This document shows positions 1,829 to 20,636 of a DNA stretch of 64,000 nt, piece after piece. The notes beneath the pieces were generated by a model, which was not told where the DNA came from, did no database searches, and saw only the letters and a list, made by a program, of their open reading frames with translations. This stretch comes from an uncultured Hoeflea sp. (lineage in GTDB: Bacteria > Pseudomonadota > Alphaproteobacteria > Rhizobiales > Rhizobiaceae): the NCBI RefSeq assembly GCF_947501405.1, contig NZ_CANMVK010000002.1, positions 558,001-622,000 on the forward strand, given 5' to 3'. The position numbers and the translations under genes are program-made. Position 1 is the stretch's first letter, and every line of letters starts with the position of its first letter.

Positions 1829-1842
1829 TAACTGGTTAGTTA
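1829..1842. promoter_or_regulatory. Inverted-repeat operator, copy 1 (TAACT-N4-AGTTA)
   Basis: TAACT and AGTTA arms separated by GGTT lie in the short divergent region between an aldo/keto reductase and the CoA-transferase operon. The same 5-4-5 arrangement recurs at 12255-12268 and, with TAACC as left arm, at 12353-12366. The binding regulator is not identified. Confidence 0.6.
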
Positions 1843-1864
1843 CTTAAATGCAATTGAGGATGTC

Positions 1865-3451
1865 ATGTCAAAAGTCGGAACTGCGGAATTCGCCGCCCGG
1901 GCGATCCCGGATAATGCGACAATCGCGGTCAATTCGTCCAGTGGTCTTTGCTGCCCCGATGCGGTGCTGGCGGCCATCGGAGAACGGTTCGAACGAGACG
2001 GCGCGCCATGCAATCTGACAACCATACACCCCATCGCCGCGGGCGACATGTTCGGCACCAGGGGCGTGGATCACATCGCCCGGCCGGGGCTGCTCAGCCG
2101 TATCATCGGCGGCTCTTATCCCTCGGGGCCAAGCAACGCCGAGCCGCCGCTGATCTGGCAGATGATTACCGCCGATCAGATCGAGGCCTACAACATCCCC
2201 TCAGGCATTGTGTTCGACATCCTGCGCGAGGCTGCGGGAAAACGGCCCGGCGTGCTGACCAAGGTCGGTCTCGATACGTTTGTCGATCCGGATCGCGAAG
2301 GCGGGGCGATGAATGCCGCCGCCGCCAAGAACCCGATCGTCCGGCACATGCAGTTTGAAGGCGAGGACTGGCTCTATTTCCCGGCGATCGCGCCCGATGT
2401 GGCGATCATCCGCGCCACCACCGCCGACGAGAACGGCAATCTGAGTTTCGAGCAGGAGGGCGCCTATCTTGGCGCCATGGAAATGGCGCTGGCCGCCCAC
2501 AACAATGGCGGCACGGTAATCGCCCAGGTCAAGCGCGTCGCTGCGGCCGGGTCGATCCGGCCGCACGATGTGCATGTGCCGGGCATTCTGGTCGACATCG
2601 TGGTTGAGGCGCCCGATCAGTTGCAGACCACGGCCACGCCATATGATCCGGCCATCTCCGGTGAGGTCACGCGTGCGCTATCATCATTCAGCAATGCCGA
2701 GTTCAACGCCGGCAAGGTGATCGCGCGCCGCGTCGCCCAGGAGCTGCATGCCGGCTGGGCGGTCAATATCGGTTTCGGCATCTCCGCCAATGTGCCGCGC
2801 ATTCTGGTCGAGGAGGACCTGCATGGCGCGGTGACCTGGGTGATTGAACAGGGCGCTGTCGGCGGCATCCCGCTGCTTGATTTCAAGTTCGGCTGCTCCG
2901 CCAATGCCGAGGCTTTCGTACCCTCGCCACACCAGTTCTGCTACTTTCAGGCCGCGGGTTTTGACGCCTCGCTGCTTTCCTTCCTGGAAGTCGGCCGCGA
3001 CGGATCGGTCAACGTCTCACGGCTGCCTGCAATCCCCCATCGCACCGCCGGTGCCGGCGGCTTTGTCGACATCACCGCCCGGGCGCGCAAAATTGTTTTT
3101 TCTGGAAATTTCAACGCCGGCGCGCGAATGTCTATCGTCGATGGCCAGTTGCGGATCGACCGCGAGGGCAAGACAGCCAAATTCGTCGAGGAGGTCAACC
3201 AGGTGTCGTTTTCCGGCAAACGCGCTCAGCAGCAAAACCAGGATGTCACCTATGTGACCGAGCGCTGTGCCATCCGGCTGATCGAGGGGAGGCTGGTCGT
3301 CACCGAAATCGCCCCGGGCCTCGACCTGAAACGCGACGTGCTTGACCAGACGGCGGGAACGCTTGCCGTATCCGATGATCTCAAGATCATGGATGATGCG
3401 CTGTTCCGCCCCGAACCCTTCGGACTGCGACTGGGGAGCGGCCATGGCTGA
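1865..3451 (+). CDS. Acyl-CoA:acetate/3-ketoacid CoA-transferase family protein (528 aa)
   Basis: Class I CoA-transferase with both subunits joined in one chain, like propionate CoA-transferase and YdiF. It moves CoA from a donor acyl-CoA to a free carboxylic acid through a glutamyl-CoA thioester. The active-site Glu is residue 328 in VIEQGAVGGIPL, which matches the E-x-G-x-x-GG motif of the family. The N-terminal half corresponds to the alpha subunit and the C-terminal half, from about residue 290, to the beta subunit. The start ATG follows GAGGA at a normal distance. It is the first gene of a four-gene operon and overlaps the enoyl-CoA hydratase start by eight bases. It would activate the organic acid degraded by the downstream enzymes; the acid is not known. 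Confidence 0.92.
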   Translation: MSKVGTAEFAARAIPDNATIAVNSSSGLCCPDAVLAAIGERFERDGAPCNLTTIHPIAAGDMFGTRGVDHIARPGLLSRIIGGSYPSGPSNAEPPLIWQMITADQIEAYNIPSGIVFDILREAAGKRPGVLTKVGLDTFVDPDREGGAMNAAAAKNPIVRHMQFEGEDWLYFPAIAPDVAIIRATTADENGNLSFEQEGAYLGAMEMALAAHNNGGTVIAQVKRVAAAGSIRPHDVHVPGILVDIVVEAPDQLQTTATPYDPAISGEVTRALSSFSNAEFNAGKVIARRVAQELHAGWAVNIGFGISANVPRILVEEDLHGAVTWVIEQGAVGGIPLLDFKFGCSANAEAFVPSPHQFCYFQAAGFDASLLSFLEVGRDGSVNVSRLPAIPHRTAGAGGFVDITARARKIVFSGNFNAGARMSIVDGQLRIDREGKTAKFVEEVNQVSFSGKRAQQQNQDVTYVTERCAIRLIEGRLVVTEIAPGLDLKRDVLDQTAGTLAVSDDLKIMDDALFRPEPFGLRLGSGHG

Positions 3452-4220
3452 CGACAGTCGCATCAGGCTTACCGTTACCGACCAGATCGGACATCTGCTG
3501 ATCGATCGTCCCGACCGGCTCAACGCACTCGATGCCGCAATGGTCGATGAGCTTGGCGCGCTCTGCGCCGCGATCGACCGGCGCGACGACATTGCCGTTG
3601 TGGTGTTGTCGGGTGAGGGTAGGGGGTTCTGCGCCGGCGGTGACATTGAGGCCTGGAGCGCTGAAACCCCGCGGCAATTCGGGCAGGGTTGGGTTCGCGA
3701 CGGTCACCGGGTGTTCGATGCGCTCGCCCGTCTCCGTCAGCCGGTGATCGCGGTCATTGACGGCCATGCATTGGGTGGTGGGCTTGAGCTGGCGGCCTGC
3801 GCTGACTACCGGATCGCCGAGAGCCACATCCGGATCGGCCAGCCCGAAACCGGCCTCGGCATCATTCCCGGCTGGTCGGGCACTCAGCGCGCAGTGCGGC
3901 GCTTCGGAGCCCAGGCGGTGCGCCGCATGGCTCTGTTCGGTGTCATCTATACCGCCGAAGAAGCGCTGCGCGAGGGACTGGTGGACCAGATCGCCGAGAC
4001 TGGCGAGGGACTTGAAGCCGGTCTTGAGTGCGCGCGCGCGCTGATGCGCCGGGGGCCGGAAGCCACCGAACTCACCAAGATGCTGATCAACGCTGCCGAG
4101 GGAGAAGAGGTCGAGCGCGTGCTCGAAGCCTTCGCCGGGCGCATTGCCGCGGGAAGCGACGACCTCAGGGAAGGTCTGGCGGCCTTCCGCGAAAAACGCA
4201 AACCCGGCTTTCGCCGGTAA
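3444..4220 (+). CDS. Enoyl-CoA hydratase/isomerase (crotonase) family protein (258 aa)
   Basis: Crotonase-fold enzyme that hydrates a 2-enoyl-CoA. The oxyanion-hole segments GRGFCAGGDIEAW and DGHALGGGLELAACAD are present, and both catalytic glutamates of true hydratases are kept: Glu115 in GLELAAC and Glu135 in GQPETGLGIIPG. The ATG chosen overlaps the end of the CoA-transferase gene, which is usual for a coupled operon and gives the standard crotonase length; an in-frame start further upstream would add an unrelated basic leader read from the CoA-transferase coding sequence. It lies between the CoA-transferase and the Dabb gene. Exact substrate unknown. Confidence 0.94.
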   Translation: MADDSRIRLTVTDQIGHLLIDRPDRLNALDAAMVDELGALCAAIDRRDDIAVVVLSGEGRGFCAGGDIEAWSAETPRQFGQGWVRDGHRVFDALARLRQPVIAVIDGHALGGGLELAACADYRIAESHIRIGQPETGLGIIPGWSGTQRAVRRFGAQAVRRMALFGVIYTAEEALREGLVDQIAETGEGLEAGLECARALMRRGPEATELTKMLINAAEGEEVERVLEAFAGRIAAGSDDLREGLAAFREKRKPGFRR

Positions 4221-4287
4221 GCGGTTTCAACAAGCTCATCACGGCGCACCGCCGCTCCACACGCCAATCTTAAACAAGGGAAACATC

Positions 4288-4599
4288 ATGATCCGCCATC
4301 TCGTTCATCTGCGGTTCGCCAAGGCCAATTCTGAAGCCGACAAGCAGGCGCTCTATGATCAGCTTGCAAGCCTTTCCGGTCACATTGACGGCATTCTCGA
4401 TTTCCAGCATCGCCGCAATGTCAGTGTGGAAACCCCGCTGGTGCGCGGTTTCGACGACATGTTCTGGTTTGACTTCGCCGACCTGTCGGTCCGTGATACC
4501 TATCTCGAAGACAGTGTCCACAAGGCGATCGGTGCGCAGATCGTCGCGAAACTCGAAGGCGGCGCGGACGGCGTGTTCGTGTGCGATATTGACGTGTGA
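4288..4599 (+). CDS. Dabb (stress-responsive alpha/beta-barrel) domain protein (103 aa)
   Basis: Small ferredoxin-like dimeric barrel protein beginning [11 protein letters not shown], the typical Dabb opening strand, with a central [21 protein letters not shown] segment. The family is found in stress proteins and as small enzymes or partners in catabolic operons (for example cyclases and decarboxylases); no catalytic residue can be assigned here. An AAGGGA ribosome site precedes the ATG. It lies 67 bases after the enoyl-CoA hydratase and its stop codon overlaps the GTG of the glycerate kinase, so it is translated with the catabolic enzymes and probably acts in the same pathway (inference). 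Confidence 0.88.
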
Positions 4600-5891
4600 T
4601 TGATCCCCGTAAACGTGATTTTCTGGCAGGCCTCTTTCACGCCGCGGTGCTGCGCGCGGACCCAAAGCGCGCGCTTGCCGATTGCCTGCCCGAGCGCCCC
4701 GTTGGCAAGACCGTCATCGTCGGGGCGGGCAAGGGCGCGGCGCAACTCGCGGCGGCCTTTGAAGAGCTTTGGGATGGACCGCTGACGGGAACCGTCGTCA
4801 CCCGTTACGGCTACGCCACGCCCTGCAAGACGATCAAGGTGCTTGAAGCCAGCCATCCGGTGCCCGACGCTGCCGGGCTGGCCGCGACGGAGGCGCAGTT
4901 TGAAACGGTGTCCGGGCTCTCCGAAGACGATCTTGTTGTGGCGCTGATCTGCGGCGGCGGCTCGGCGCTGTTGCCCGCGCCGCCCGAAGGGCTGACACTC
5001 GAGGATGAACAGCAGCTCAATCGGATGCTGCTTGCATCCGGTGCGCCGATCGGGGTCATGAACGCCATCCGAAAACACGCAAGCCGCATCAAGGGCGGCC
5101 GTTTGGCAGCCGCTGCTTGGCCCGCAAAGGTGGTGTCGCTGGTGGTCTCGGATGTGCCGGGCGACGAGGCCTGCCAGGTGGCGTCGGGACCGTCCGTCGC
5201 CGATGCGGTCAGCCTGTCCGATGTTCGCTCGATGGTGGCTTCTCGCCATATCGCCTTGCCCGGAAGCATTGCCGCGCATCTCGACTCCGGCCGCGATTTG
5301 CCGCCGCGCCCCGATGACCCGGTCTTTGCCCGCAACGAGGTCCATGTCATCGCTTCGGCTCGCCTGTCGCTGGAAGCGGCAGCCGAACTGGCCAGACGCG
5401 CAGGCGTCGAGGCGGTGATCCTCTCCGATGCGATGGAGGGCGAAGCCCGCGATGTCGGACTGGTGCATGCGGCCATCGCCCGCGAGGTGGCGTCCCGCGA
5501 CCGGCCCTTCGCCAAGCCGGTGGTGATCCTGTCGGGCGGGGAGACCACGGTGACCTTGCGCGCCAGCGACGGCAAATTCGGCAAGGGCGGCCGCAACACC
5601 GAGTTCCTGCTGTCGCTGGCCGCGGCCATTGACGGTGATCAGGCAATCACTGCGCTCGCCGCAGACACCGATGGCATCGACGGCAGCCAGGACAATGCCG
5701 GAGCGTTTGCCGACACAACCACGGCTGAGCGTCTCCGCGCTGCCGGGCTCGATGCGCAGGCGTCCCTTTCCGTCAACGACGCCTGGACGGCGTTTGACGC
5801 CATCGGCGACCTGTTCGTGATCGGACCGACCGGAACCAACGTCAACGATTTCCGGGCGATTCTGGTCGGCGAACTGCCCGACGCCGGTTGA
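4596..5891 (+). CDS. Glycerate kinase, MOFRL family (431 aa)
   Basis: ATP-dependent glycerate 2-kinase of the TtuD/GckA type, converting D-glycerate to 2-phosphoglycerate and so feeding lower glycolysis. The N-terminal domain shows the conserved [12 protein letters not shown] with the catalytic Lys, then SHPVPD and [12 protein letters not shown]; the C-terminal MOFRL domain shows [32 protein letters not shown] and the closing [10 protein letters not shown]. It starts with GTG in a GTGA overlap with the Dabb stop. Its presence as the last gene suggests that the pathway served by this operon releases glycerate or a hydroxypyruvate-type C3 unit (inference). Confidence 0.93.
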
Positions 5892-6078
5892 ATTGCCGGT
5901 TCACGTTTTCAGGCCCGAGAGTTCCCCGGCACCCCGCTGATTGGCGAAGCGGGTTCCCAAGGCCTTTTCATCTGGAGCCGAGTGGCTGTTTTTGCGCCCA
6001 GCTTGATGCTTGCAAACGGATGGGTTAGCGTTTCGTGCTGGCGGACGTGGTCCGCAATTCCCAAAAACGGGGGCTCTC

Positions 6079-7014
6079 ATGCAAGCGCTCAGCCGGATCA
6101 TGACGGAACCGATTCCGATCGAGACACTGCGCGATGACATTCGGCAGATTTGCGGGGCCTTCGAGATTGAACCCGGGACGCTCAGGGGCCCGTCGCACGG
6201 GTTGGCGCGGAAAAGCAGCATGGGCGGGTTCGATATCGCGCTTGTGTCGCTGGACGCCAAGACGGCCGAACGAACCCGCACCTGCATCCGGCGCGATCCT
6301 GGCGAGTATTTCTTCCTGCTGGTGCAGGATTTCGGTCAATGCGTGGTGCATCAAAATGGCGCCGCGACCCTGCTGGGCCCGGGTGACATGTTTGTGGTTG
6401 ATGCGACCCATCCGTCGAGTTTCGTCTACAATGGGCAGCTTGCGCATCAGATTTCCGTGCATTTGCCGCGAGACGAGATTCTCGGCCGGTTCGGCGCGGC
6501 CTGCAACGGAGGCGTGACGATCGACCGCGCCGATCCGCTATGGGTGGCGATGCGGGCGGTGCTGGCCAAGATGCTGCACGCGCCTCCGGAAGCCGGATTG
6601 CAGCTCAGTGAGGTGTTTTATGGGCTGATGGGCGCCTATTTCCAGGAACGCCGCAGCCAGACCGCCGATCCGCGGGGCCTGTTTGTCGACCGCGCGCTTC
6701 GGCTTATCGCGCAGCATTATCGCGATCCGGAATTCGGACCCCGTGCACTGGCCGAGCATCTGGGTGTATCGCTGCGCAGCCTGCAGCGGAATTTCGAAAT
6801 ACTCGGAGAGACGCCCGGTCAGCGTCTGGTCGACACCCGTCTGGCGCAGGCCCATGCCGAGCTGTCCAATGCGCGGCCGGAGACATCGGTTGCCGACCGT
6901 GCCTATGCCTGCGGCTTCAACGACCTGTCGCATTTCTATCGTGCATTCAGACGGCGCTACGGTGTGACCCCGGGCGACATCATGGCGCGGTCGCCTGGCG
7001 TGATCGTCCAATAG
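6079..7014 (+). CDS. AraC family transcriptional regulator, FeaR-like (311 aa)
   Basis: Two-domain activator: an N-terminal AraC_binding_2-type effector domain (about residues 20-190) and a C-terminal pair of helix-turn-helix motifs (about 205-305), with AEHLGVSLRSLQRNFE as the first and VADRAYACGFNDLSHFYRAF as the second, ending RYGVTPGD. Domain layout and context (directly ahead of an aldehyde dehydrogenase and a copper amine oxidase) match FeaR, the activator of the feaB/tynA phenylethylamine genes of E. coli. The start chosen is the ATG after a G-rich ribosome site; an upstream in-frame ATG would add 23 non-conserved residues. It probably senses an amine or its aldehyde product (inference). 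Confidence 0.9.
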   Translation: MQALSRIMTEPIPIETLRDDIRQICGAFEIEPGTLRGPSHGLARKSSMGGFDIALVSLDAKTAERTRTCIRRDPGEYFFLLVQDFGQCVVHQNGAATLLGPGDMFVVDATHPSSFVYNGQLAHQISVHLPRDEILGRFGAACNGGVTIDRADPLWVAMRAVLAKMLHAPPEAGLQLSEVFYGLMGAYFQERRSQTADPRGLFVDRALRLIAQHYRDPEFGPRALAEHLGVSLRSLQRNFEILGETPGQRLVDTRLAQAHAELSNARPETSVADRAYACGFNDLSHFYRAFRRRYGVTPGDIMARSPGVIVQ

Positions 7015-7075
7015 CGCTGTCGCTTTCCTCCAAGAAGCGCACGTCACAACTCCCTATCCTGCCATTGAGGAACCC

Positions 7076-7094
7076 AACCGGCCTACGTCCGGTT
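7076..7094. promoter_or_regulatory. Small hairpin just upstream of the aldehyde dehydrogenase ribosome site
   Basis: Perfect AACCGG/CCGGTT inverted repeat with a 7-base loop, ending ten bases before the GGGAGGA ribosome site of the aldehyde dehydrogenase. It could be a weak terminator after the regulator gene or an activator/RNA structure in the leader; nothing in the sequence decides. Confidence 0.3.
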
Positions 7095-7114
7095 GCGGCA
7101 CGAGGGAGGATATA

Positions 7115-8533
7115 GTGGAAGACCAGATTGATACGATTGCCCTGACGATCGGGGGCCGGAGTGTGGCCACCGCTCAGCGCTTTGATGTGCCCAATCCCGC
7201 CACCGGCGGCCTTGCCGGTACGGCTCCGGATGTCGGGCAGAGCGAGCTTGATCAGGCCGTTGCCGCCGCACGCGCTGCATTTGCAGAGTGGTCCGCAAAG
7301 CCGGATGCGGAATTGCAGGCCGCCTGCAATGCGGTCGCCGACACGCTTGAAGCGCATGCCGAGGAACTGGCGCAGCTGATCACGGCCGAGCAGGGCAAAC
7401 CGCTTGGCGGCATCGGCTCGCGCTGGGAAGTGGGCGGCGCGGTGGCTTGGGCACGCTACACCGCCGGCCTGTCGCTGCCGATGCAGGTCTTGCAGGACAG
7501 CAATGAAGGCCGGGTCGAGATGTACCGCAAACCGCTTGGCGTTGTGGGCTCGATTACGCCCTGGAATTTTCCGGTGCTGATTGCCGTCTGGCACATTCTG
7601 CCCGCTCTGCGCACAGGCAACACGGTGGTCTCCAAACCCTCGCCGATGACGCCGCTGGCGTCGCTGCGGATGATCGAGCTGATGAATGAGGTATTGCCCG
7701 CGGGCGTGGTCAACTCCGTTAGTTGCGCGGATACGGATATCAACATGGGCGCGGCCATGTCGGCCCATGAGGGCATTGCCAAGATCGTGTTCACCGGATC
7801 CTGCGGCACCGGCCAGAAAGTCATGCAATCCTCCGCCGAGACCATGAAACGGCTGACGCTGGAAATGGGCGGCAATGATGCCGGAATCGTGCTGCCCGAT
7901 GCCGATCCCGAAAAGATCGCCGAGGGGCTGTTCTGGGGCGCGTTCATCAACAATGGTCAGACCTGTGCTGCGATGAAGCGGCTTTACGTCCACGACAGCA
8001 TCCACGACGCGGTTTGTGACGCGCTTGTCGCCTATGCAAGCAACATCAAGGTCGGTGAGGGCACAAGCGATGACAGCGTGCTCGGCCCGGTGCAGAACAG
8101 AATGCAGTTCGACAAGGTCTCGCGGCTGGTCGCCCAGGCCCGCGACAAGGGGCAGGTATTGCTGGGCGGCGGTCCGGGCGAGGGGCTGTTCTTTCCGCCG
8201 ACGATCATTGCCGGACTGGAAGCCGACGATCCGCTGGTCTGCGAGGAACAGTTTGGTCCGGCGTTGCCGATTATTCGCTATCATGACGTCGAAGACGCGC
8301 TGGCCCAGGCCAATGCGCTGGACATCGGGCTCGGCGGGTCTGTCTGGTCGCAGGACACCGAGAAGGCCAAGCAGATCGCCAGGCGCATGGAGTGCGGATC
8401 CGTCTGGATCAACAGCCACGGCATGATCCAGCCCAACGCTCCATTTGGCGGTGTCAAGAAATCGGGCTTCGGGATCGAATTCGGCGAGGAGGGGCTGAAG
8501 GAGTACACCGACATCCAGGTGATGTTCGCCTAA
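7115..8533 (+). CDS. NAD(P)-dependent aldehyde dehydrogenase (472 aa)
   Basis: Cytosolic ALDH-superfamily enzyme oxidising an aldehyde to its acid. The cofactor site ITPWNFPVLIAVW, the catalytic general base Glu250 in LEMGGNDAGIV and the nucleophile Cys284 in NNGQTCAAMKR are all present, as are EEQFGPALP and the C-terminal PFGGVKKSGFG signature. It starts at GTG seven to ten bases after a strong GGGAGGA. It sits between the FeaR-like regulator and the copper amine oxidase, so the natural substrate is probably the aldehyde released by the oxidase, as FeaB does for phenylacetaldehyde in E. coli. The specific amine is not known. Confidence 0.94.
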   Translation: MEDQIDTIALTIGGRSVATAQRFDVPNPATGGLAGTAPDVGQSELDQAVAAARAAFAEWSAKPDAELQAACNAVADTLEAHAEELAQLITAEQGKPLGGIGSRWEVGGAVAWARYTAGLSLPMQVLQDSNEGRVEMYRKPLGVVGSITPWNFPVLIAVWHILPALRTGNTVVSKPSPMTPLASLRMIELMNEVLPAGVVNSVSCADTDINMGAAMSAHEGIAKIVFTGSCGTGQKVMQSSAETMKRLTLEMGGNDAGIVLPDADPEKIAEGLFWGAFINNGQTCAAMKRLYVHDSIHDAVCDALVAYASNIKVGEGTSDDSVLGPVQNRMQFDKVSRLVAQARDKGQVLLGGGPGEGLFFPPTIIAGLEADDPLVCEEQFGPALPIIRYHDVEDALAQANALDIGLGGSVWSQDTEKAKQIARRMECGSVWINSHGMIQPNAPFGGVKKSGFGIEFGEEGLKEYTDIQVMFA

Positions 8534-8630
8534 TCATCATCGCCCGGACGATCCGGCAGGGTGACGGCGAGAGGGCCGAAATCCCGGTCGGTCACCGGGC
8601 GGCAAGACTGAAACACAGGAGGAGATCGAC

Positions 8631-10616: not shown

Positions 10617-10637
10617 GGCGTCGGCACTCGACATGAA

Positions 10638-10670
10638 GAAACGCCCGGCTCAATCCGGGCGTTTCGTTTT
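10638..10670. terminator. Strong intrinsic terminator
   Basis: Perfect 11-bp stem GAAACGCCCGG / CCGGGCGTTTC with a 6-base loop, followed by GTTTT. It closes the amine oxidase unit and, read on the other strand, also follows the MaoC gene. Confidence 0.85.
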
Positions 10671-10745
10671 CGTGTTTGGCCGCCGCGGCAGCCATGGCAA
10701 CGATCCGAAAGGCACCGCCGGGTAGCGGTTTACCGGCCTACTTTT

Positions 10746-11225
10746 TTAACTGCGGCGCTCATGCGCGTAGACCATCAACCGGTTGGTTCCGCGCTGCACC
10801 GTGACGCCCGACTGATTGGTGACATCGAACTCCAGCGTGACGATGGCCCGGTCACCCGCCGAAACCGGCCTGATGGCGGCGATGGTGATCAGTGCGCCGA
10901 TCGTGTCGCCGGCCAGAACCGGCGCCTGAAACGTCCAGTCCCAGCCCAGCGAGGCTTGTGCCTTGAACTGTGCGGCGGCCTGGTTTTTTAGCCCGTCGAT
11001 CAGCGACAACACCAAAAGCCCATGCGCCACCCGCGCAGCAAATCCGTGCCTCAGCGCAGCCTCATGCGACATGTGGATCTCGAACCGGTCGCCGGTCATA
11101 GCGGCGAACCCGTCGATCATATCCGTGGTGACCGCGACCCGCCCGGTTTCGACGACATCGCCTGGCGCGATATCGCCGAAACCGTAGCGGCCTTCCGGGA
11201 GGAAAGCTGTATCCGGCTTGCTCAT
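10746..11225 (-). CDS. MaoC-like (R)-hydratase / dehydratase family protein (159 aa)
   Basis: Hot-dog-fold enoyl-CoA hydratase or acyl-CoA dehydratase. The hydratase motif is intact: FAAMTGDRFEIH supplies catalytic Asp46 and His51, followed by GFAARVAHGLLVLSLIDGL. The ATG overlaps the preceding aldo/keto reductase stop in an ATGA junction, so a longer upstream start can be dismissed. With an acyl-CoA dehydrogenase in the divergent operon it could hydrate the double bond made by that enzyme; the crotonase at 3444 could do the same with opposite stereochemistry. Substrate unknown. Confidence 0.92.
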   Translation of the reverse strand: MSKPDTAFLPEGRYGFGDIAPGDVVETGRVAVTTDMIDGFAAMTGDRFEIHMSHEAALRHGFAARVAHGLLVLSLIDGLKNQAAAQFKAQASLGWDWTFQAPVLAGDTIGALITIAAIRPVSAGDRAIVTLEFDVTNQSGVTVQRGTNRLMVYAHERRS

Positions 11226-12238
11226 GCGGGCGTCGGCGCATCCTCGCGCAGCAGCCCGCGCGATTTGAGCGTCGCCCAGAAATCGGCGGGGATCGGGTGG
11301 CTGAACCATTTCAGGTTCTGATCGAGCTGCGCCACGGTGCGGGTGCCGGCCATGAAGGTGGGTATGGCGGGGTGTGCCACCACGAACTGCAGCGCTGCCG
11401 CCGGCAGCGGCACGTCAAAATCGGCGCACACGGCCTCGATTTTCCTGACCCGGTCCATGATCTCGACCGGCGCGGGCGCATAATTATATTTGGCGCCGTC
11501 GACCGCGCCGGTCGCCAGGATGCCCGAATTAAAGCCGCCGCCCACCACCACTGCTGCGCCGCGCGCTTCGCACAGCGGCAGGAAACTGTCGTGTGATTCC
11601 TGCTCGAGCAAAGTGTAGCGACCGGCCAGCAGGAAGCAGTCGAAGTCGCGTTGCTCAAGCGCCGCCTGGCAGACCTGCCATTCATTGACGCCAACACCGA
11701 TCGCCTTGACCACGCCCTCGTCGCGCAGCTTTGACAGCGCCTTCCATGACCCGTCCATTGCAGCCTTGAAAACCTCCGGCTGTTCATCGCCACGGGTGAA
11801 CACGTCGATATCGTGAATGAAGCAGATGTCCATATATTCGAGATTGAGCCGCTGCAGTGAATCCTCGAACGCCCGCATGGTGCCGTCATAGGAATAGTCG
11901 AAATGCATGGTAAACCGCCCGGCATTGGTCCAGGGGGCGTAGTCGATGTCCTGTTTGCGGGCCGGTTTGAGAATACGGCCGACCTTCGACGACAGCACGA
12001 ATTCGTCACGTTCCTTCCAGCGCAGTGAATGGCCGGTGCGCAGCTCCGCCAGGCCATGGCCATACATCGGCGCTGTATCGTAGTAGCGCACGCCCGCATC
12101 CCAGGCATGCTGGATCATCGCGTCCGAGGTCTCCTCGTCGATCTCGCGGAAGATGTTTCCGATCGGCGCCGTGCCGAAACCAAAGGGCGTAACCTTCAGA
12201 TCAACCCTGCCGAATTCTACCTTGTCGAACGGATTCAT
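11222..12238 (-). CDS. Aldo/keto reductase, sugar-dehydrogenase type (338 aa)
   Basis: AKR-superfamily oxidoreductase of the longer class that includes D-threo-aldose (L-fucose) 1-dehydrogenase and pyridoxal 4-dehydrogenase. The tetrad is visible: Asp and Tyr in YYDTAPMYGHG, Lys in LSSKVGRIL, His in CFIHDIDVF. Opening FGFGTAPIGNIFREI is typical of the aldose-dehydrogenase subgroup. It is the first gene of a two-gene leftward operon with the MaoC protein, and its promoter region holds a copy of the shared inverted repeat. It probably oxidises or reduces a sugar or sugar-derived carbonyl (inference). Confidence 0.93.
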   Translation of the reverse strand: MNPFDKVEFGRVDLKVTPFGFGTAPIGNIFREIDEETSDAMIQHAWDAGVRYYDTAPMYGHGLAELRTGHSLRWKERDEFVLSSKVGRILKPARKQDIDYAPWTNAGRFTMHFDYSYDGTMRAFEDSLQRLNLEYMDICFIHDIDVFTRGDEQPEVFKAAMDGSWKALSKLRDEGVVKAIGVGVNEWQVCQAALEQRDFDCFLLAGRYTLLEQESHDSFLPLCEARGAAVVVGGGFNSGILATGAVDGAKYNYAPAPVEIMDRVRKIEAVCADFDVPLPAAALQFVVAHPAIPTFMAGTRTVAQLDQNLKWFSHPIPADFWATLKSRGLLREDAPTPA

Positions 12239-12254
12239 GGTGGCCTCCCATAAG

Positions 12255-12268
12255 TAACTGTTTAGTTA
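12255..12268. promoter_or_regulatory. Inverted-repeat operator, copy 2 (TAACT-N4-AGTTA)
   Basis: TAACT-GTTT-AGTTA, located 16 bases upstream of the leftward aldo/keto reductase start. Same arm sequence and 4-base spacing as at 1829-1842. Confidence 0.6.
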
Positions 12269-12352
12269 TATAGCCATATCATGACGTCCTGCACAAGCCC
12301 CTGGCGCATGCTGAGGCCGGGGCTTGACCGGGTCCGGCGCCAGACCTATAAG

Positions 12353-12366
12353 TAACCAAGTAGTTA
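12353..12366. promoter_or_regulatory. Inverted-repeat operator, copy 3 (TAACC-N4-AGTTA)
   Basis: TAACC-AAGT-AGTTA with extended perfect outer arms AGTAAC/GTTACT, 13 bases before the acyl-CoA dehydrogenase start, so a bound protein would block promoter or ribosome access. Third member of the series. Confidence 0.6.
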
Positions 12367-12379
12367 CTGGAGGGCGGAG

Positions 12380-13525
12380 ATGTTTCTCAACGAGATGCAC
12401 AGGCAGGTTCGGGACATGACCCGAAGCTTTGCCAAGGATGTGATCAGGCCTGTCGCCGAGGAACTTGACCGTGAAGAGCGCTTTCCCCGCGAGATCTACA
12501 AGCAGATGGCCGAGCTCGGCCTGTTTGGTATTTGCGTGCCCGAAGAGATGGGCGGGCCCGGTTTCGACACCATCACCTATGCGCTGGTGATGGAAGAGTT
12601 GTCGCGCGGTTATGCCTCGGTGGCCGATCAGTGCGGATTGGTCGAGCTGATCTCGACCTTGCTGGTCCGGCATGGCAGCGATGCGCAGCGGGCCAAATGG
12701 CTGGCCGATATCCTGAAGGCACAAACGCTGGTCGCCTATTGTATCACCGAACCCGAGGCCGGCACCGATGTTTCTGCCATCCGCACCACAGCGGTGCGCA
12801 ATGGCGATGGCTGGCTGCTCAATGGCGACAAGATCTGGATTCACAACGCACCGGTTGCGGATCTGGCTTTCGTGCTGGCGCGCACCGACAAGGATGCCGG
12901 TCATCGCGGCATGTCAATCTTCGTCGTCGATCTCAATCAGCAGGGCGTCGAGCGCGGCCCCAAGGAACATAAGATGGGTCAGCGCGCCAGTCAGGTCGGC
13001 GCGTTGGCCTTCAAGGATGTGCAGCTTGCCGAAGACGCTCTGCTTGGTGTCGAGGGCAGGGGCTTTCACATGATGATGAGCGTACTCGACAAGGGCCGTG
13101 TCGGCATCGGTGCGCTTGCCGTCGGTATCGGCCAGGCCGGTCTTGAAGCCGCCGTGGATTACGCTGCGCAGCGCAAACAGTTCAAAAAGCCCATCGCCGA
13201 GTTCCAGGGCGTGCAGTGGCTGCTGGCCGACATTGCCAAGGATGTCGAGGCGGCGCGGCTGCTGGTGCTCAGCGCCGCAGCCAAGATCGACGCCGGAGAG
13301 GACGCCACCAAGGCCTGTTCCATGGCCAAGTGCTTTGCCGGCGACATGGCGGTGGCCCGCAGCGCCGATGCCGTGCAGGTGTTTGGCGGTTCGGGTTATA
13401 TACGCGGCTTTGAGGTGGAGCGGCTTTACCGCGACGCCAAGATCACTCAGATTTACGAAGGAACCAACCAGATCCAGCGCATGATCATCGCCCGCGAACT
13501 TCTCGCCAAGGGGGCGGCGGCATGA
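12380..13525 (+). CDS. Acyl-CoA dehydrogenase family protein (381 aa)
   Basis: FAD-dependent enzyme introducing a 2,3-double bond into an acyl-CoA. It has the three-part family fold: helical N-terminus, middle beta domain with TLVAYCITEPEAGTDVSAIR and KIWIHNA, and C-terminal helices with FGGSGYIRGFEVERLYRDA. The catalytic base is Glu360 in IYEGTNQIQRM, the position used in short- and medium-chain enzymes. A GGAGGGCGGAG ribosome site precedes the ATG. The SDR gene overlaps its stop. It heads a four-gene operon with non-fatty-acid partners, so the substrate is more likely a branched or sugar-derived acyl-CoA than a fatty acid (inference). Confidence 0.95.
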   Translation: MFLNEMHRQVRDMTRSFAKDVIRPVAEELDREERFPREIYKQMAELGLFGICVPEEMGGPGFDTITYALVMEELSRGYASVADQCGLVELISTLLVRHGSDAQRAKWLADILKAQTLVAYCITEPEAGTDVSAIRTTAVRNGDGWLLNGDKIWIHNAPVADLAFVLARTDKDAGHRGMSIFVVDLNQQGVERGPKEHKMGQRASQVGALAFKDVQLAEDALLGVEGRGFHMMMSVLDKGRVGIGALAVGIGQAGLEAAVDYAAQRKQFKKPIAEFQGVQWLLADIAKDVEAARLLVLSAAAKIDAGEDATKACSMAKCFAGDMAVARSADAVQVFGGSGYIRGFEVERLYRDAKITQIYEGTNQIQRMIIARELLAKGAAA

Positions 13526-14292
13526 GTGGCCAGGTCGCGCTGATCACCGGCTCGGGCCGCGGCATCGGCCTTGCGGCGGCCGTTGCGCTGGCCAAGCGCG
13601 GCTTCGCCGTTGCGCTCAACGGGCTTGCCGATGATGAAGAACTCGCCCGGGCCGCTCAGGCTATTCGCGACTGCGGCGCCAGGGTGCATGCCTCGGCGCT
13701 TGATGTTTCCGACATCGCGGCCCACGACGCCTATCTTGGCGCGATTGAAGCGAAGCTCGGTCCATTGACCACGCTGGTCAACAATGCCGGCGTCGGCGTC
13801 ATCAGCCGCGGCGACCTGCTCGACGTCACCGAGGAGAGCTATGACCGCTGCTTGACGGTCAACACCAAGTCGCTGTTCTTTCTGTCCCAGGCATTCGCCA
13901 AGCGGTTGCTCGGTCGAGCGCGTTCGCCCGAACAGTTTCATTCCATCGTCAATGTCACCTCGTCCAACGCCAATGCCGTTGCCGTTCAGCGCGGCGAGTA
14001 TTGTGCCTCCAAGGCGGCGGCCGCGATGGTGTCCAAGACCTTTGCAGTGCGGCTGGGTCCGGAAAACATCGCCGTCTATGACGTTCAGCCCGGCCTGATC
14101 AAAACCGACATGACTGCGCCGGTGATCGCCCAGTACGAGCAGCGTGCCAAAGACGGTCTGACCCTGTTTCCGCGCGTGGGCCAGCCCGAGGATGTGGGCA
14201 ATGTGATTGCCGCGCTCGCCACCGGAGAGCTTCCCTACACCACCGGTCAGACGGTCTCGGTGGATGCGGGCATGCTGGTTTCAAGATTCTGA
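13522..14292 (+). CDS. Short-chain dehydrogenase/reductase (256 aa)
   Basis: Classical SDR, NAD(P)-dependent. The Rossmann motif TGSGRGIG is near the N-terminus, NNAGVG follows, and the catalytic Ser-Tyr-Lys set lies in VTSSNANA and EYCASKAAA (Tyr160, Lys164). The C-terminal GQTVSVDAGM is typical. The start overlaps the acyl-CoA dehydrogenase stop (ATGA). It is annotated in many genomes as 3-ketoacyl-ACP reductase-like, but in this operon a 3-hydroxyacyl-CoA or sugar alcohol dehydrogenase role is more likely (inference). Confidence 0.94.
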   Translation: MSGQVALITGSGRGIGLAAAVALAKRGFAVALNGLADDEELARAAQAIRDCGARVHASALDVSDIAAHDAYLGAIEAKLGPLTTLVNNAGVGVISRGDLLDVTEESYDRCLTVNTKSLFFLSQAFAKRLLGRARSPEQFHSIVNVTSSNANAVAVQRGEYCASKAAAAMVSKTFAVRLGPENIAVYDVQPGLIKTDMTAPVIAQYEQRAKDGLTLFPRVGQPEDVGNVIAALATGELPYTTGQTVSVDAGMLVSRF

Positions 14293-14300
14293 GGAAAGCG

Positions 14301-15452
14301 ATGATGAAGATTGCTCTGCCCGACAGCCATGGCCGTTTGACCGACTACGCCCTTACGGGCGTTCCGGTCGAAGGGGCGAGGCTCGGCGCTGACGCCACCA
14401 GAACCGTGTTCTCCGCCGCCCATGTGGTGGCCGATCCGTTCACTGCCAATGACCCGACCGGCACCGCCAGCGTCGATTGGGATGCGACCATGGCCTTTCG
14501 CCGCCATCTGATCGATCACGGGCTGGGGATAGCCGAAGCGATGGACACCGCTCAGCGCGGCATGGGGCTGGACTGGCCCGGCGCGCTGGAACTGATCACC
14601 CGCACCAGGACCGAATTCCCCGAGGCGCTGGTGTTCAACGGCGCGGGCACCGATCACCTCGATCCGGCTTACGCCAGATCACTCGACGATGTGCGCCGCG
14701 CCTATCTGCATCAGATCGAGGCGATCCAGATGATTGGCGGCCGCATCATTCTGATGGCGAGCCGGGCCCTTGCCAAGGTCGCTCAAAGCCCCGACGACTA
14801 TGTCCGGATCTACGGCGAGGTGCTTTCGGCCTGCGATCAGCCTGTGATCCTGCATTGGCTGGGCGAGATGTTCGATCCGGCGCTTAAAGGCTATTGGGGT
14901 AGCGCCGAATTCGATGATTGCCTTGAGACGACGCTGGCCATCATTGGACAGAACGTGGCCAAGGTCGACGGCATCAAGATCTCGCTGCTCGACAAGGACA
15001 AGGAAATCCGCATGCGCCGGCTGCTGCCCGATGGTGTGCGCATGTATACCGGCGATGACTTCAACTACCCTGAACTGATCGAAGGCGACGAACAGGGATT
15101 TTCCCATGCGCTGCTGGGGATCTTCGATCCGCTGGCGCCCGCCGCAGCCTATGCTGTCGATGAACTGGGCAAAGGCAACACGGCCGCCTTCCGCGCGACG
15201 CTGGATCCGACGGTACCGCTGGCGCGCCGGATCTTTCGCGCGCCCACCCGGTTTTACAAGACAGGGGTCGTGTTCATGGCCTGGCTCAACGGATTTCAGG
15301 ATCACTTCATCATGCTCGGCGGCGCGCAATCGGCGCGGCCGCTACCGGATCTCGTCGAAATCTTCAAAATGGCCGACACCTGCGGGCTACTGCGTGATCC
15401 CGATCTCGCCGTTGCCCGGATGAACCGGCTGCTCGCGGTCTACGGGGTGTAG
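14301..15452 (+). CDS. DUF993 family protein, DHDPS-like TIM barrel (383 aa)
   Basis: Member of an uncharacterised family distantly related to dihydrodipicolinate synthase and N-acetylneuraminate lyase. The sequence runs as a TIM barrel; Lys226 in VDGIKISLLDKD sits where the Schiff-base lysine of the DHDPS/NAL class would lie, suggesting an aldolase or lyase reaction on a keto acid. GAGGAAAG precedes a double ATG. It is followed six bases later by a sugar-phosphate isomerase-like gene, a pairing compatible with breaking down an unusual sugar acid. No experimentally defined function is known to me for the family; the aldolase idea is inference. Confidence 0.88.
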   Translation: MMKIALPDSHGRLTDYALTGVPVEGARLGADATRTVFSAAHVVADPFTANDPTGTASVDWDATMAFRRHLIDHGLGIAEAMDTAQRGMGLDWPGALELITRTRTEFPEALVFNGAGTDHLDPAYARSLDDVRRAYLHQIEAIQMIGGRIILMASRALAKVAQSPDDYVRIYGEVLSACDQPVILHWLGEMFDPALKGYWGSAEFDDCLETTLAIIGQNVAKVDGIKISLLDKDKEIRMRRLLPDGVRMYTGDDFNYPELIEGDEQGFSHALLGIFDPLAPAAAYAVDELGKGNTAAFRATLDPTVPLARRIFRAPTRFYKTGVVFMAWLNGFQDHFIMLGGAQSARPLPDLVEIFKMADTCGLLRDPDLAVARMNRLLAVYGV

Positions 15453-15457
15453 ATCCG

Positions 15458-16318
15458 GTGCGCGATTTTGCCTCCGATCATTCCATGCTGGCGCTCAACA
15501 CCGCAACGCTGGGCCACAATCTCGATGGCCATGGCGTTGGGTGGAGCTCCGAACAGGTGATCGAGGCCTGCGCCGAGCGCGGTCTGGGCGGCATCACCTT
15601 CTGGCGTCGTGAGATCGGCACGCGCGCCGTCGAGATCGGCAACCGGGTGCGCGCAGCCGGCCTGCAGGTGGTTGGCCTGTGCCGCACGCCGTTTCTGACA
15701 GGCCCGCTCGCCCCGCCCACCCGGCAGGGCGTGATTGATGACTTCCGCGCCTCCATCGCCATGGCCCACGATTTGGGCGCGCCAGTGCTGACCATCGTCA
15801 CCGGCGGGGTGATCGCCGGAAGTCATTCGATCACCGAAAGCCTCAAACAAGTACAAGACATCGTCGCGGCCATGGCGCCCGAAGCCGCGGATGCTGGTGT
15901 GGTGCTGGCGCTCGAGCCGCTCAACCCGGTCTATGGCGGCAACCGCTCTTGCCTGGTCACGGTGCGCGATGCGGTCGACATGTGCGAGGCGATCGGCGCG
16001 CCCAACGTCCAGATCGCCGTCGATGTCTATCACGTCTGGTGGGACACATCGCTAGCCAGCGAACTCAAGCGCGCGGGCAAACACCGCATCGCCGGCTATC
16101 ACCTTTGCGACTGGATGGCGGACACCACTGATGTGCTGCTCGATCGCGGCATGATGGGCGACGGTGTAGCAGACCTTGAATCGATCCGCGCGGCGGTCGA
16201 GGGCGCTGGCTACGACGGCTATTGCGAGGTGGAGATTTTTTCCGCCGGCAATTGGTGGAAGCGCCCGCCAGGCGAAGTTCTTGACGTCATGATCGAGCGC
16301 TTCAAGTCGGTATGCTGA
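15458..16318 (+). CDS. Sugar phosphate isomerase/epimerase family protein (286 aa)
   Basis: Xylose-isomerase-like TIM barrel (AP endonuclease 2 superfamily), usually acting on keto-sugars with a divalent metal. Candidate metal ligands appear in order: Glu in LALEPLNPV, Asp and His in QIAVDVYHVWWD, Glu in YCEVEIFSAGNWW. It starts at GTG five bases after the DUF993 stop. Its 3' end overlaps the convergent LacI gene by 17 bases. The neighbouring sugar ABC importer and LacI repressor support a sugar substrate. Confidence 0.9.
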   Translation: MRDFASDHSMLALNTATLGHNLDGHGVGWSSEQVIEACAERGLGGITFWRREIGTRAVEIGNRVRAAGLQVVGLCRTPFLTGPLAPPTRQGVIDDFRASIAMAHDLGAPVLTIVTGGVIAGSHSITESLKQVQDIVAAMAPEAADAGVVLALEPLNPVYGGNRSCLVTVRDAVDMCEAIGAPNVQIAVDVYHVWWDTSLASELKRAGKHRIAGYHLCDWMADTTDVLLDRGMMGDGVADLESIRAAVEGAGYDGYCEVEIFSAGNWWKRPPGEVLDVMIERFKSVC

Positions 16319-17339
16319 GCGCCGCAGACGGCAGATACGCTTCCGGGCTGGCCAGCACCTGAAGGCTCTCGGGCGCTTCGCCGTCCAATTGCCGCAACAA
16401 CAGCCGCATCATGATCCGGCCGGCTTCCTCGATGTCCTCGCGCAGCGATTCCACATTGGGCCGCAGATGCTTGAAGATATCTGAAGTGCGTTTGGCGATC
16501 AGCGCAATGTCATGGTCGGGCGAAAGCCCCGCATCTAAAATGGCGGCGTTGGCGATGATGGCCGACACTTCACCGGGGCAGATGATGCCGTCGGGCCGCC
16601 CGGGCGAGCTCAGCCATCGGCGCATGCCCGGGTGCAGCCGGTCGGCCTCCATGTTGAGGTCGAAATCCTCGGGAATGTGACTGGTCAGGCCGAACCGGCC
16701 AAGTCCGTCGCGATATCCCGCCATCATATGGTCGTGATACATGAAGCGGCTCGAAGGCGGCACGATGCCGATCCGCCTGCAGCCGCGCGCCGCCAGCCGC
16801 CCCACCGCGTCACGGGCAAAGGCATAATTGTCGTAATCATACCAGGCGTGGCTTTGCAGGTCGGTGCGGCCATGGGTGACGAAGGGAAATTTCTGCTCCA
16901 GTAAAAAAGCCGCCCGCGGGTCCTGGCGGGTGGTGCGGGCAAACAGGATGCCATCGGCCTGGCGGTTGCGCACGATGAAACGGATCGGCTCCAGCGGATC
17001 TTCGCCCAGTTGATACTGCATCACGGTGAGATGGTAACGCGTGCCGCGCACAATGTCGGCGATGCCAGTGATCATTGAATTGCCAAAGCCGAGAATTTCG
17101 CTGTGCGGATCAAGCACCAGGCTGACCACATTGGTGCGCCCGGTCCTCAGCCTTTGCGCTGCCCGGTCGGGCACATAGCCAATCTCGCGCGCGGTGGTTA
17201 AAACCCGCTCCCGGGTCTTGGCGGCGATCTTGGGATCATTGGCGAGCGCCCGCGACACCGTCGTGACGGCAAGACCGGTCAGCCGCGCAATGGTCTGCTG
17301 TGTGGGCTTGTCCCCGCTATGGCCGCCGGAATAATTCAT
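16302..17339 (-). CDS. LacI family transcriptional repressor (345 aa)
   Basis: DNA-binding repressor with an N-terminal LacI helix-turn-helix and hinge (about residues 12-70: TIARLTGLAVTTVSRAL, then GYVPDRAAQRLRTGRTN) and a periplasmic-binding-protein-like effector domain (about 75-335). The chosen ATG gives the family-standard length; starting 30 codons earlier would add a non-conserved leader. It is divergent from the sugar ABC operon, and the space between holds a 20-bp perfect palindrome with central CG, as LacI-family operators have, overlapping the importer promoter. It probably represses the importer and itself until a sugar binds. Confidence 0.92.
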   Translation of the reverse strand: MNYSGGHSGDKPTQQTIARLTGLAVTTVSRALANDPKIAAKTRERVLTTAREIGYVPDRAAQRLRTGRTNVVSLVLDPHSEILGFGNSMITGIADIVRGTRYHLTVMQYQLGEDPLEPIRFIVRNRQADGILFARTTRQDPRAAFLLEQKFPFVTHGRTDLQSHAWYDYDNYAFARDAVGRLAARGCRRIGIVPPSSRFMYHDHMMAGYRDGLGRFGLTSHIPEDFDLNMEADRLHPGMRRWLSSPGRPDGIICPGEVSAIIANAAILDAGLSPDHDIALIAKRTSDIFKHLRPNVESLREDIEEAGRIMMRLLLRQLDGEAPESLQVLASPEAYLPSAALSIPT

Positions 17340-17461
17340 CGTCACCCGTTTATCATTGCCTGCACTGTCATTTTCGCCCGTGCATCCCGAATTGCCACAC
17401 TTTACGCCCGGTTTCTCGCCTGACTCCATTGCACAAGAGGCAGCATAGCGCGAAAATACGG

Positions 17462-17491
17462 TTGACAGGAACCATATTTATAACGTTATAA
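17462..17491 (+). promoter_or_regulatory. Promoter of the sugar ABC importer
   Basis: TTGACA at 17462-17467 and TTATAA at 17486-17491 with an 18-base spacer; the -10 element lies inside the LacI-type palindrome. Confidence 0.6.
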
Positions 17492-17494
17492 ATA
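17475..17494. promoter_or_regulatory. LacI-type operator, 20-bp perfect palindrome
   Basis: A perfect 20-bp palindrome with core ATAACGTTAT centred on CG between 17484 and 17485. It overlaps the predicted -10 box and lies between the LacI gene and the operon it most likely controls. A degenerate copy of the other inverted repeat (TAACC-GTAT-AGTGC) follows directly at 17497-17510. Confidence 0.75.
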
Positions 17495-17529
17495 AGTAAC
17501 CGTATAGTGCGGTAATTGGGAGGTTGAAA

Positions 17530-18780
17530 ATGAAATCGACAAGAGCAACGCTCAAAATGACCGTCGCGGCGCTGGCCGTGATGACCGCCGGTGCGCAGGC
17601 AGCGGATGTGGAGGTCTTGCATTGGTGGACTTCGGGCGGCGAAGCCGCAGCGTTGAATGTCCTCAAGCAAGATCTCGAAGGCCAGAGCATCGGCTGGCAG
17701 GACATGCCGGTGGCCGGCGGCGGTGGCGAGCAGGCCATGACTGTGCTGCGCGCCCGCGTGACCTCGGGCAATGCGCCCACAGCCGTGCAGATGCTAGGCT
17801 TCGACATCACCGATTGGGCAGACCAGGGTGCGCTGGCGGATCTCAACAGCGTGGCCGAGCAGGAAGGTTGGGACGCAGTCGTGCCTGACGCGCTCAAGGC
17901 GTTTTCCAAGCATGACGGCAAGTGGGTGGCTGCGGCCGTCAACGTGCACTCGACCAACTGGGTCTGGGCCAATAAGTCCGTGCTTGAGGCCAATGGCATC
18001 GAAGTTCCGCAAACCTGGGAAGACTTCACGGCCGCACTCGCCAAGCTCAAGGAAGCGGGCATCACCCCGATCGCCCATGGCGGCCAGCCCTGGCAGGATG
18101 CCACCGTGTTTGACGCGGTCGCGATGTCGACCGGCGGCCCCGACTTCTACAAAAAGGCCTTTATCGATCTTGATCCCGAAACACTCGGGTCGGAAACCAT
18201 GGTCGAAGCCTTCAAGCGCATGGACGTCATTCGCGCCAATGTCGATGAGAACTTCTCCGGCCGCGACTGGAACCTGGCGACCGCCATGGTCATCAACGGC
18301 GAAGCCGGTTTCCAGATGATGGGCGACTGGGCCAAGGGCGAATTCCTCAACGCCGACAAGACGCCGGGCGAGGATTTCCTCTGCTTCCGCTTCCCCGGCA
18401 CCCAGGCGCAGGTCACCTTCAACGCTGACCAGTTCGCCATGTTCGATCAGGGCGGCGAAGTCTCCGCCGAGCAGGCAGCACTCGCCAAGGCGATCCTGTC
18501 GCCGTCGTTCCAGTCCGCCTTCAACGTGGTCAAGGGTTCGGTGCCTGCGCGCACCGATGTCAGCGACGAGGCCTTTGACGCTTGCGGCAAGCAGGGCATG
18601 AAGGATCTGGCCGCGGCTGCCTCGAGCGGCAACCTGTTCGGCTCAATGGCCCATGGCCATTCCGCGCCGGCCTCGGTCAAGAACGCCATGTACGACGTCA
18701 TCACCGCGCATTTTAACGGTGAGTACGACGCCGAGACCGCGGCCGCGGAACTTGCGACCGCCGTCGAGCTCGCGCAATAA
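17530..18780 (+). CDS. Sugar ABC transporter substrate-binding protein (416 aa)
   Basis: Periplasmic family 1 solute-binding protein that captures a sugar for the two permeases downstream. A Sec signal peptide ([10 protein letters not shown], hydrophobic core, cleavage after AQA) is followed by [16 protein letters not shown], typical of glucose/mannose-type binding proteins. The ATG at 17530 is preferred over a TTG six bases earlier because GGGAGG abuts the TTG but is well spaced from the ATG. It is first in the operon under the LacI operator. The ligand cannot be read from sequence. Confidence 0.94.
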
Positions 18781-18855
18781 CCCTCAAGCTTCCCTCCCGG
18801 CGGTCATCGCCGCCGGGAGGGGTGCGCCATCCAATTGCATGAGGGGAGCGGGGCT

Positions 18856-20633: not shown

Positions 20634-20636
20634 CCC

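Follow-up and report, generated by a model that had tools for sequence, protein, structure and literature searches.

A conserved palindrome as the probable operator of a local TetR-family regulon in a catabolic gene cluster of an uncultured Hoeflea sp.

An inverted repeat, TAACYN4AGTTA, recurs in the promoters of a catabolic gene cluster located partly within a 64,000-nucleotide stretch of the genome of an uncultured Hoeflea sp. (G000:C2:558001-622000). This whole stretch is denoted here the window, and positions given without a contig prefix are counted from its first nucleotide. Sequence comparisons make it highly likely that the motif is the operator of a TetR-family repressor encoded in the same cluster at C2:548053-548694. 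The repeated motif is genuine: its sites are limited to the promoters of a single cluster that also encodes the candidate regulator, are kept in orthologous promoters, and are absent from the paralogous ones scanned. Motif, cluster, and repressor gene also recur jointly in other alphaproteobacteria, distant ones included. As a system type, this is an ordinary local TetR regulon, the unusual point of which is a conserved asymmetric operator at importer promoters. The outcome is a probable regulator, operator sequence, and gene list for a catabolic cluster; no publication on this cluster or regulon was found in the open-access literature searched.

Genomic distribution of the motif

An earlier note, made from the sequence of the window alone, described three copies of the repeat and a degenerate fourth. 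All were recovered where it had placed them: TAACTGGTTAGTTA at 1829-1842 (S2), TAACTGTTTAGTTA at 12255-12268 (S3), TAACCAAGTAGTTA at 12353-12366 (S4), and the degenerate form TAACCGTATAGTGC at 17497-17510. A further exact copy that it overlooked, S1 (C2:555714-555727), lies outside the window, 2.3 kb from its left end and 37 bp ahead of an aldehyde dehydrogenase gene (ALDH1). In the window, TAACYN4AGTTA yields five strand hits at three places (shuffle mean 0.02), and in the entire genome (4,451,211 bases, 11 contigs), six strand hits at four places, all within C2:555714-570366. These four places span 14.7 kb, and each is close upstream of a catabolic gene. The genome scan that the note had asked for thus finds the motif confined to four places in one cluster; an equal frequency elsewhere in the genome, which the note had named as refuting its proposal, was not observed. 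Read backwards as a control, the pattern gave 7 and 4 hits across the genome, and the relaxed form TAACN6GTTA occurs at seven places, of which S1-S4 are four. When two mismatches to TAACTN4AGTTA were allowed, the window contained 4 hits versus 4.3 expected, with no excess, so that only the near-exact motif is significant on its own. The bare string is common in other genomes (at least one match in 97 of 151 family genomes); the weight of the case rests on position and conservation.

A symmetric profile was built from 98 distinct sites of relatives, with the Hoeflea genome itself excluded. Its consensus is the 20-bp palindrome wwGTAACYRnnYRGTTACww. Over 82 kb of Hoeflea sequence, the top four scores correspond to S2 (34.6), S1 (30.8), S3 (29.6), and S4 (28.4), followed by a site ahead of a GMC oxidoreductase gene, GMC0 (25.3); the next score is 10.2. 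On 413,268 positions of 22 paralogous loci, no score reached 15 and two reached 10. Because the profile was fitted to sites found by the pattern, it confirms their ranking and flanking bases but is no independent confirmation of the pattern. The site-like sequence ahead of GMC0, TATCTAACTGGTTACTTA, is located just upstream of the gene (L005:5792-5809), and relatives of GMC0 in three other loci (L014, L017, and L120) are directly preceded by exact palindromes.

Conservation in homologous clusters

A search with one of the two aldo/keto reductases of the cluster, AKR2, retrieved 39 loci, 17 of them (L007-L022 and L025) at 75-84% identity and 22 at 41-53%; the motif scan took in all 39, and gene-by-gene annotation, L007-L025. 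All of the 17 close loci but L025, 16 in total, have TAACN6GTTA ahead of AKR2, and none of the 22 others does. Among the family genomes, the site is found in 24 of 25 promoters of AKR2 orthologues, the Hoeflea one included (the miss is G016). A lack of the motif in homologous clusters was the other finding that the earlier note would have taken as refutation; in the AKR2 promoter, it is seen only in these two misses (L025 and L179, the latter being the G016 locus), both without a close TetR match, and neither of the two tests refuted the proposal. None of the five scanned promoters of AKR2 paralogues at 63-64% identity has the site (a sixth came without a locus), and overall, all 27 promoters of diverged AKR2 paralogues scanned are devoid of the motif; in one of these loci (L183), TAACTTTAACGTTA is present outside the promoter.

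The divergent promoter between the second aldo/keto reductase gene, AKR1, and the CoA-transferase gene has sites in 11 of the 12 cases in which it is visible among the 17 clusters, L025 again being the exception; AKR1 and the CoA-transferase gene are not neighbors in L016. The same arrangement, with sites, occurs on pSymA of Sinorhizobium meliloti 1021 and on a Sagittula plasmid.

A TetR-family candidate regulator

The earlier note posited one regulator for three units and saw none in the window. The first part is supported by the genome-wide exclusivity of the motif, the conserved sites in homologous promoters, and their absence from the paralogue promoters scanned; as to the second, a candidate was found 9.3 kb to the left of the window. 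This gene (C2:548053-548694, L005:8053-8694, minus strand) encodes a 213-aa protein with a TetR_N domain (PF00440; 56.6 bits versus a cut-off of 24) and a TetR_C_29 domain (PF17938; 142.9 bits versus 26.2) that covers positions 1-119 of the 119 in the model. Of the NCBIfam models, 19 matched at E ≤0.001 (RutR, BetI, FadR, KstR, AcuR, and others), none above its cut-off, the best being a ScbR-type model at 59.6 bits versus 150. The best PDB sequence match, 3npi, is titled merely TetR family regulatory protein.

Orthologues of this protein (66-82% identity) are encoded in 14 of the 17 genomes with close AKR2 loci, in 13 of the 14 on the site-bearing contig. In 394 family genomes, AKR2 orthologues (at least 73%) were detected in 25, TetR orthologues (at least 68%) in 25, and both in 23 (Fisher p 9e-33, relatedness ignored); in 21 of these 23, the two genes are on one contig within 30 kb. 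Five AKR2-bearing genomes lack a close TetR match, and the site is absent in two of them. One is a 2.6-Mb metagenome-assembled genome (G167/L025) with no TetR match and a best profile score of -1.0. In the other (G016/L179), no TetR orthologue was detected at the limit of the search; AKR2 of this genome is in a rearranged cluster together with a TetR protein of 40% identity that differs in the helix-turn-helix (HTH) segment, and a weak site-like sequence (11.1) lies in the cluster away from the AKR2 promoter. The incomplete gene table of the Sagittula plasmid lists a single regulator between 19.6 and 39.7 kb, the TetR gene.

More telling than the TetR-less genomes are the TetR paralogues encoded outside the cluster (50-58% identity). 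In 7 of 14, the canonical motif is found within about 200 bp of the paralogue gene, and all seven adjoin a diverged gene for a DUF993 protein; in one further case, a site lies at a distance of 1.9 kb, and the other six have none. Loci L219, L222, L223, and L225-L228 encode such paralogues at 52-55% identity, with canonical palindromes adjoining the gene beside the diverged DUF993 gene. Judging from these sequences, the DUF993-linked paralogues apparently govern a second, related regulon with the same operator. The HTH segment NKRM[IL]YHY[FY] is constant in the aligned TetR orthologues and the site-bearing paralogues, and none of the 11 loci of more distant TetR hits (25-41%, partial stretches) contains the motif.

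Several observations weigh against the assignment of the sites to this protein. Sites are present in the remaining three genomes without a close TetR match (G066, G152, and G164), each of them a fragmented assembly. G066 consists of 440 contigs, G152 has the site on a 3.9-kb contig and weak TetR matches at most, and in G164, the best TetR match (41% over most of its length) is flanked by the palindromes TAACTCAATGGTTA and TAACCATTTCGTTA. The six paralogues without the motif lack it in 8-9 kb of sequence, although five of them share NKRMLYHYF. A second TetR copy in G163 (70-71%) has no canonical palindrome beside its gene, no site was seen for the TetR relatives of 41-44% identity in L093 and L094, and the TetR match in G165 contains a TAG codon. 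The co-occurrence across genomes partly reflects the mere membership of the TetR gene in the cluster. Moreover, a strict promoter scanner returned no hits in the three regions tried, the S3/S4 region included, and the variant site at an importer promoter, considered below, scores low on the canonical profile (6.3). As a separate observation, the second copy in G163 (L118, G163:C27:150000-169500) is located near a relative of aldehyde dehydrogenase; the cluster copy is present in G163 as well.

Another regulator encoded elsewhere could bind the canonical sites, the linked TetR protein controlling only its own promoter through a variant ending in AGTGC. Indeed, 22 of the 25 family loci have this variant in the promoter shared by the TetR gene and the adjacent importer, for the most part with no canonical palindrome there, and the sites in G066, G152, and G164 point the same way. 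Nevertheless, the variant keeps the canonical left half, AAGTAACY, in nearly all aligned sequences; for the TetR paralogues located at another cluster, canonical palindromes adjoin the paralogue genes; and in four genomes (G063, G165, G281, and G289), the TetR gene itself has canonical sites next to it. We consider this alternative unlikely and favor the cluster-encoded TetR protein as the regulator.

Two other regulators encoded in the window were rejected. The AraC-family protein (6010-7014) is FeaR-like, below the cut-off, and belongs to an aldehyde dehydrogenase/copper amine oxidase block whose AraC and amine oxidase genes had no match in the annotated stretches of relatives; also, AraC proteins usually bind direct repeats. 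The LacI-family protein has a different palindrome beside its gene and adjoins only the second of two importers.

Promoter layout and proposed mechanism

S2 (predicted operator 1826-1845, core 1829-1842) lies between AKR1 on the minus strand and the CoA-transferase gene on the plus strand. S3 (12252-12271, core 12255-12268) is 16 bp ahead of the AKR2 start codon, and S4 (12350-12369, core 12353-12366) is 13 bp ahead of the start codon of the acyl-CoA dehydrogenase (ACAD) gene, directly behind TATAAG. Eighteen ACAD/AKR2 promoters were compared (L008 and L025 were left out). In all 18, a site ends 12-33 bp ahead of the ACAD start codon, and a block GTCAA (TTGAC on the ACAD strand) behind the site is constant. 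Sixteen of them contain two exact sites, 76-117 bp apart. In the Hoeflea genome, S4 directly follows TTGACC-N17-TATAAG, with the -35 and -10 elements read by eye, a placement that would fit repression by promoter blocking.

From sequence, position, conservation, and co-occurrence, we infer the following mode of action. A TetR dimer would bind the 20-bp palindrome close ahead of the start codons of the controlled units, over or just after the -35/-10-like elements where these are readable, and so keep transcription off until the dimer is released by a pathway-related ligand. The protein would also act on its own promoter, shared with the first importer. The predicted units that start to the left of the window are the joint unit of TetR, the first importer, and a Zn-dependent alcohol dehydrogenase; ALDH1-GMC1; and probably GMC0. 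Those in the window are AKR1 together with CoA-transferase-crotonase-kinase, AKR2-MaoC, ACAD-SDR-DUF993-TIM barrel, and the second ABC importer. Thus, the units named in the earlier note stand, but the extent that it gave to the regulon was too small: the ALDH1/GMC operon is to be added and, probably, the second GMC gene, GMC0. The regulon defines genes that act together, and therefore, the substrate can be sought through what releases the repressor.

Some TetR proteins activate transcription. An activator or dual regulator in place of a repressor is very unlikely here, given the location of a site 12-33 bp ahead of the ACAD start codon behind the constant TTGAC and the placement of S4 directly after TTGACC-N17-TATAAG, a position in which a bound protein should obstruct RNA polymerase. 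DNA looping or cooperative binding between the paired sites of the divergent promoter is suggested by the prevalence of two exact sites. This reading is highly improbable, and we reject looping because the spacing of the sites is variable while the ACAD site holds its distance to the gene; also, two promoters retain only one exact site. Simple repression by the TetR protein remains the preferred reading.

A variant site at importer promoters

In the intergenic region between the TetR gene and the first importer, GTAAC(C/T)AG(A/T)TAGTGC is the sole long block that is constant in 13 aligned sequences (L109, L118, and L122 were left out). In the Hoeflea genome, this block is located 17 bp after a TTGAC that is constant across the alignment. 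Among the 25 TetR-orthologue loci of the family, the three without GTAACN5AGTGC are L142, L143, and L145; in L142, a canonical site takes the place of the variant, between the TetR gene and an acyl-CoA dehydrogenase gene. The sequence GTAACYNNNTAGTGC occurs exactly twice in the Hoeflea genome, at the TetR/first-importer promoter and at 17496-17510 in the window, and its reversed control does not occur. The degenerate form at 17497 hence belongs to a recurrent class of importer-promoter sites, and the degenerate fourth site of the earlier note is, from its recurrence and its conservation at the TetR/importer promoter, very probably real. The predicted variant operator, GTAACCGTATAGTGCGGTAA (17496-17515, plus strand), precedes the second ABC importer. 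The note had deemed the inclusion of sugar uptake possible; that of uptake is probable, via two importers, one beside the TetR gene and the other from 17524 onwards.

A chance match at 17497 is, in our estimate, rather unlikely. Its canonical score of 6.3 is below that of a presumed chance match at 31931 (7.2), and promoters of the gene for SBP1, the substrate-binding protein of the second importer, are mostly negative. Relatives of SBP1 are encoded in 180 of 394 genomes, mostly unlinked to the cluster; most of these matches came without a locus, and of the 30 loci obtained, 29 were scored (L204 is too short). Only four promoters are positive, that of Hoeflea (6.3) and those in G344 (14.7), G250 (16.6), and G281 (4.8), the other 25 being negative. 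However, all four positive genes share a contig with a TetR or AKR2 orthologue; in three TetR-bearing genomes with a negative promoter (G181, G296, and G082), the SBP1 gene is on another contig. Scores of at least 5 occur only six times in the 413,268 background positions, and two copies of GTAACYNNNTAGTGC in 4.45 Mb, both at importer promoters, would be unexpected for a chance sequence. Four cluster-linked or second-cluster promoters from other genomes are mixed: canonical in L112, with one mismatch in L120, partial in L106, and without a site visible by eye in L123.

Immediately ahead of the variant site is a LacI-type palindrome, TTTATAACGTTATAAA (17477-17492); similar sequences of the AACGTTATAAAT type were seen by eye in L106 and L123. 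The divergent lacI gene and this promoter palindrome are features that the second importer shares with LacI-controlled sugar importer operons. Unlike these operons, the second importer has a predicted TetR-type variant operator directly downstream of the palindrome, and for this reason, dual control of the second importer by LacI and TetR is probable.

The variant combines one intact and one altered half-site, perhaps with lower affinity for the repressor. Tentatively, selection may keep the importer operators asymmetric (intact GTAACY, altered TAGTGC) such that TetR grips less tightly at the uptake and autoregulatory promoters and import leaks first. If so, a built-in order of induction would travel with the cluster across alphaproteobacteria, plasmids included. 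By comparing the two operator classes, one could readily test whether uptake is poised to come on earlier than breakdown. On S. meliloti pSymA (L124, 25096-25114), the variant site occurs a second time, as GTAACTGGTTAGTGCGTTA, about 1.6 kb beyond the TetR gene.

Comparison with known systems

KstR, KstR2, RutR, and AcuR are local TetR-family repressors of catabolic clusters. The present system resembles them in combining TetR_N and a TetR_C ligand domain above the Pfam cut-offs, palindromic predicted operators in divergent promoters, and a local catabolic regulon with CoA enzymes. In contrast to the named TetR groups, its TetR protein is above the cut-off of no NCBIfam TetR model, and its predicted operator is unlike those of the KstR and NemR types. 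The C-terminal domain is matched in full, as in the PF17938 (TetR_C_29) proteins, no member of which with this operator turned up in the searches made.

Gene content and distribution of the cluster

From left to right, the cluster starts with GMC0, a heme-binding-like protein, TetR (minus strand), and the first importer (substrate-binding protein, permease, ATPase, and permease), followed by the Zn-dependent alcohol dehydrogenase, a flavodoxin-like protein, an ABM-like protein, S1, ALDH1, GMC1, AKR1 (minus strand), and S2. Several gene names to the left of the window are from the Sagittula annotation, and flavodoxin-like and ABM-like are our own readings. The 3' part of GMC1 (11-865, plus strand; gene start C2:557264), which follows ALDH1 behind S1 and is also named after the Sagittula annotation, opens the window, next to AKR1 (926-1744, minus strand), which is DkgB-like, below the NCBIfam cut-off. 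Beyond S2, on the plus strand, are the CoA-transferase (1865-3451; FadX-like, below the NCBIfam cut-off), an enoyl-CoA hydratase/isomerase of the crotonase family (3450-4220; start chosen by us within the open reading frame 3342-4220), and a MOFRL/DUF4147 glycerate 2-kinase-like protein (4596-5891).

The next genes, in 6010-10616, encode the FeaR-like AraC regulator, an aldehyde dehydrogenase (ALDH2), and a copper amine oxidase. No AraC or amine oxidase matches were detected in the annotated stretches of relatives, and the block therefore looks like an inserted amine-degradation unit. It is followed on the minus strand by the MaoC-like dehydratase (10746-11225; start chosen by us within the open reading frame 10746-11309), downstream of AKR2 (11222-12238), the query for the comparative work. 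To the right of S3 and S4, the plus strand encodes ACAD (12380-13525), an SDR oxidoreductase (13522-14292; NF009386), the DUF993 protein (14301-15452; dihydrodipicolinate synthase family in the Sagittula annotation), and a xylose isomerase-like TIM barrel (AP_endonuc_2; 15458-16318). Among the NCBIfam matches shown for the cluster enzymes, only that of the SDR protein is above the cut-off. The LacI-family regulator (16302-17429, minus strand) is divergent from the second ABC importer (17524-21752, plus strand), which consists of the SBP_bac_1 protein SBP1, two permeases, and an ATPase with a MalK-type OB domain.

The encoded pathway would comprise import, oxidation (aldo/keto reductases, alcohol and aldehyde dehydrogenases, and GMC oxidoreductases), CoA transfer, and beta-oxidation-like steps (ACAD, crotonase, MaoC, and SDR). 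Judging by the protein families, cleavage or isomerization of the carbon chain may be due to the DUF993 and TIM-barrel proteins, and a C3 unit may be recovered through the kinase; no papers on DUF993 were found in the open-access literature. The substrate is perhaps polyol- or sugar-like.

AKR2 orthologues were found, at the limits used, in none of seven congeners and in 25 of the 394 family genomes, the Hoeflea one included, a patchy distribution that suggests horizontal acquisition of the cluster. The cluster is present in Ruegeria and other roseobacters, on S. meliloti pSymA, in Ensifer and Mesorhizobium, and on the 49-kb Sagittula plasmid. In L013, the TIM-barrel gene directly follows the kinase gene. 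On the plasmid of Sagittula sp. P11 (L125), the adjoining genes (10169-19574) encode a TRAP transporter, a degradative 3-hydroxy-3-methylglutaryl-CoA reductase, and a 3-keto-5-aminohexanoate cleavage protein, which may together form a mevalonate-type unit.

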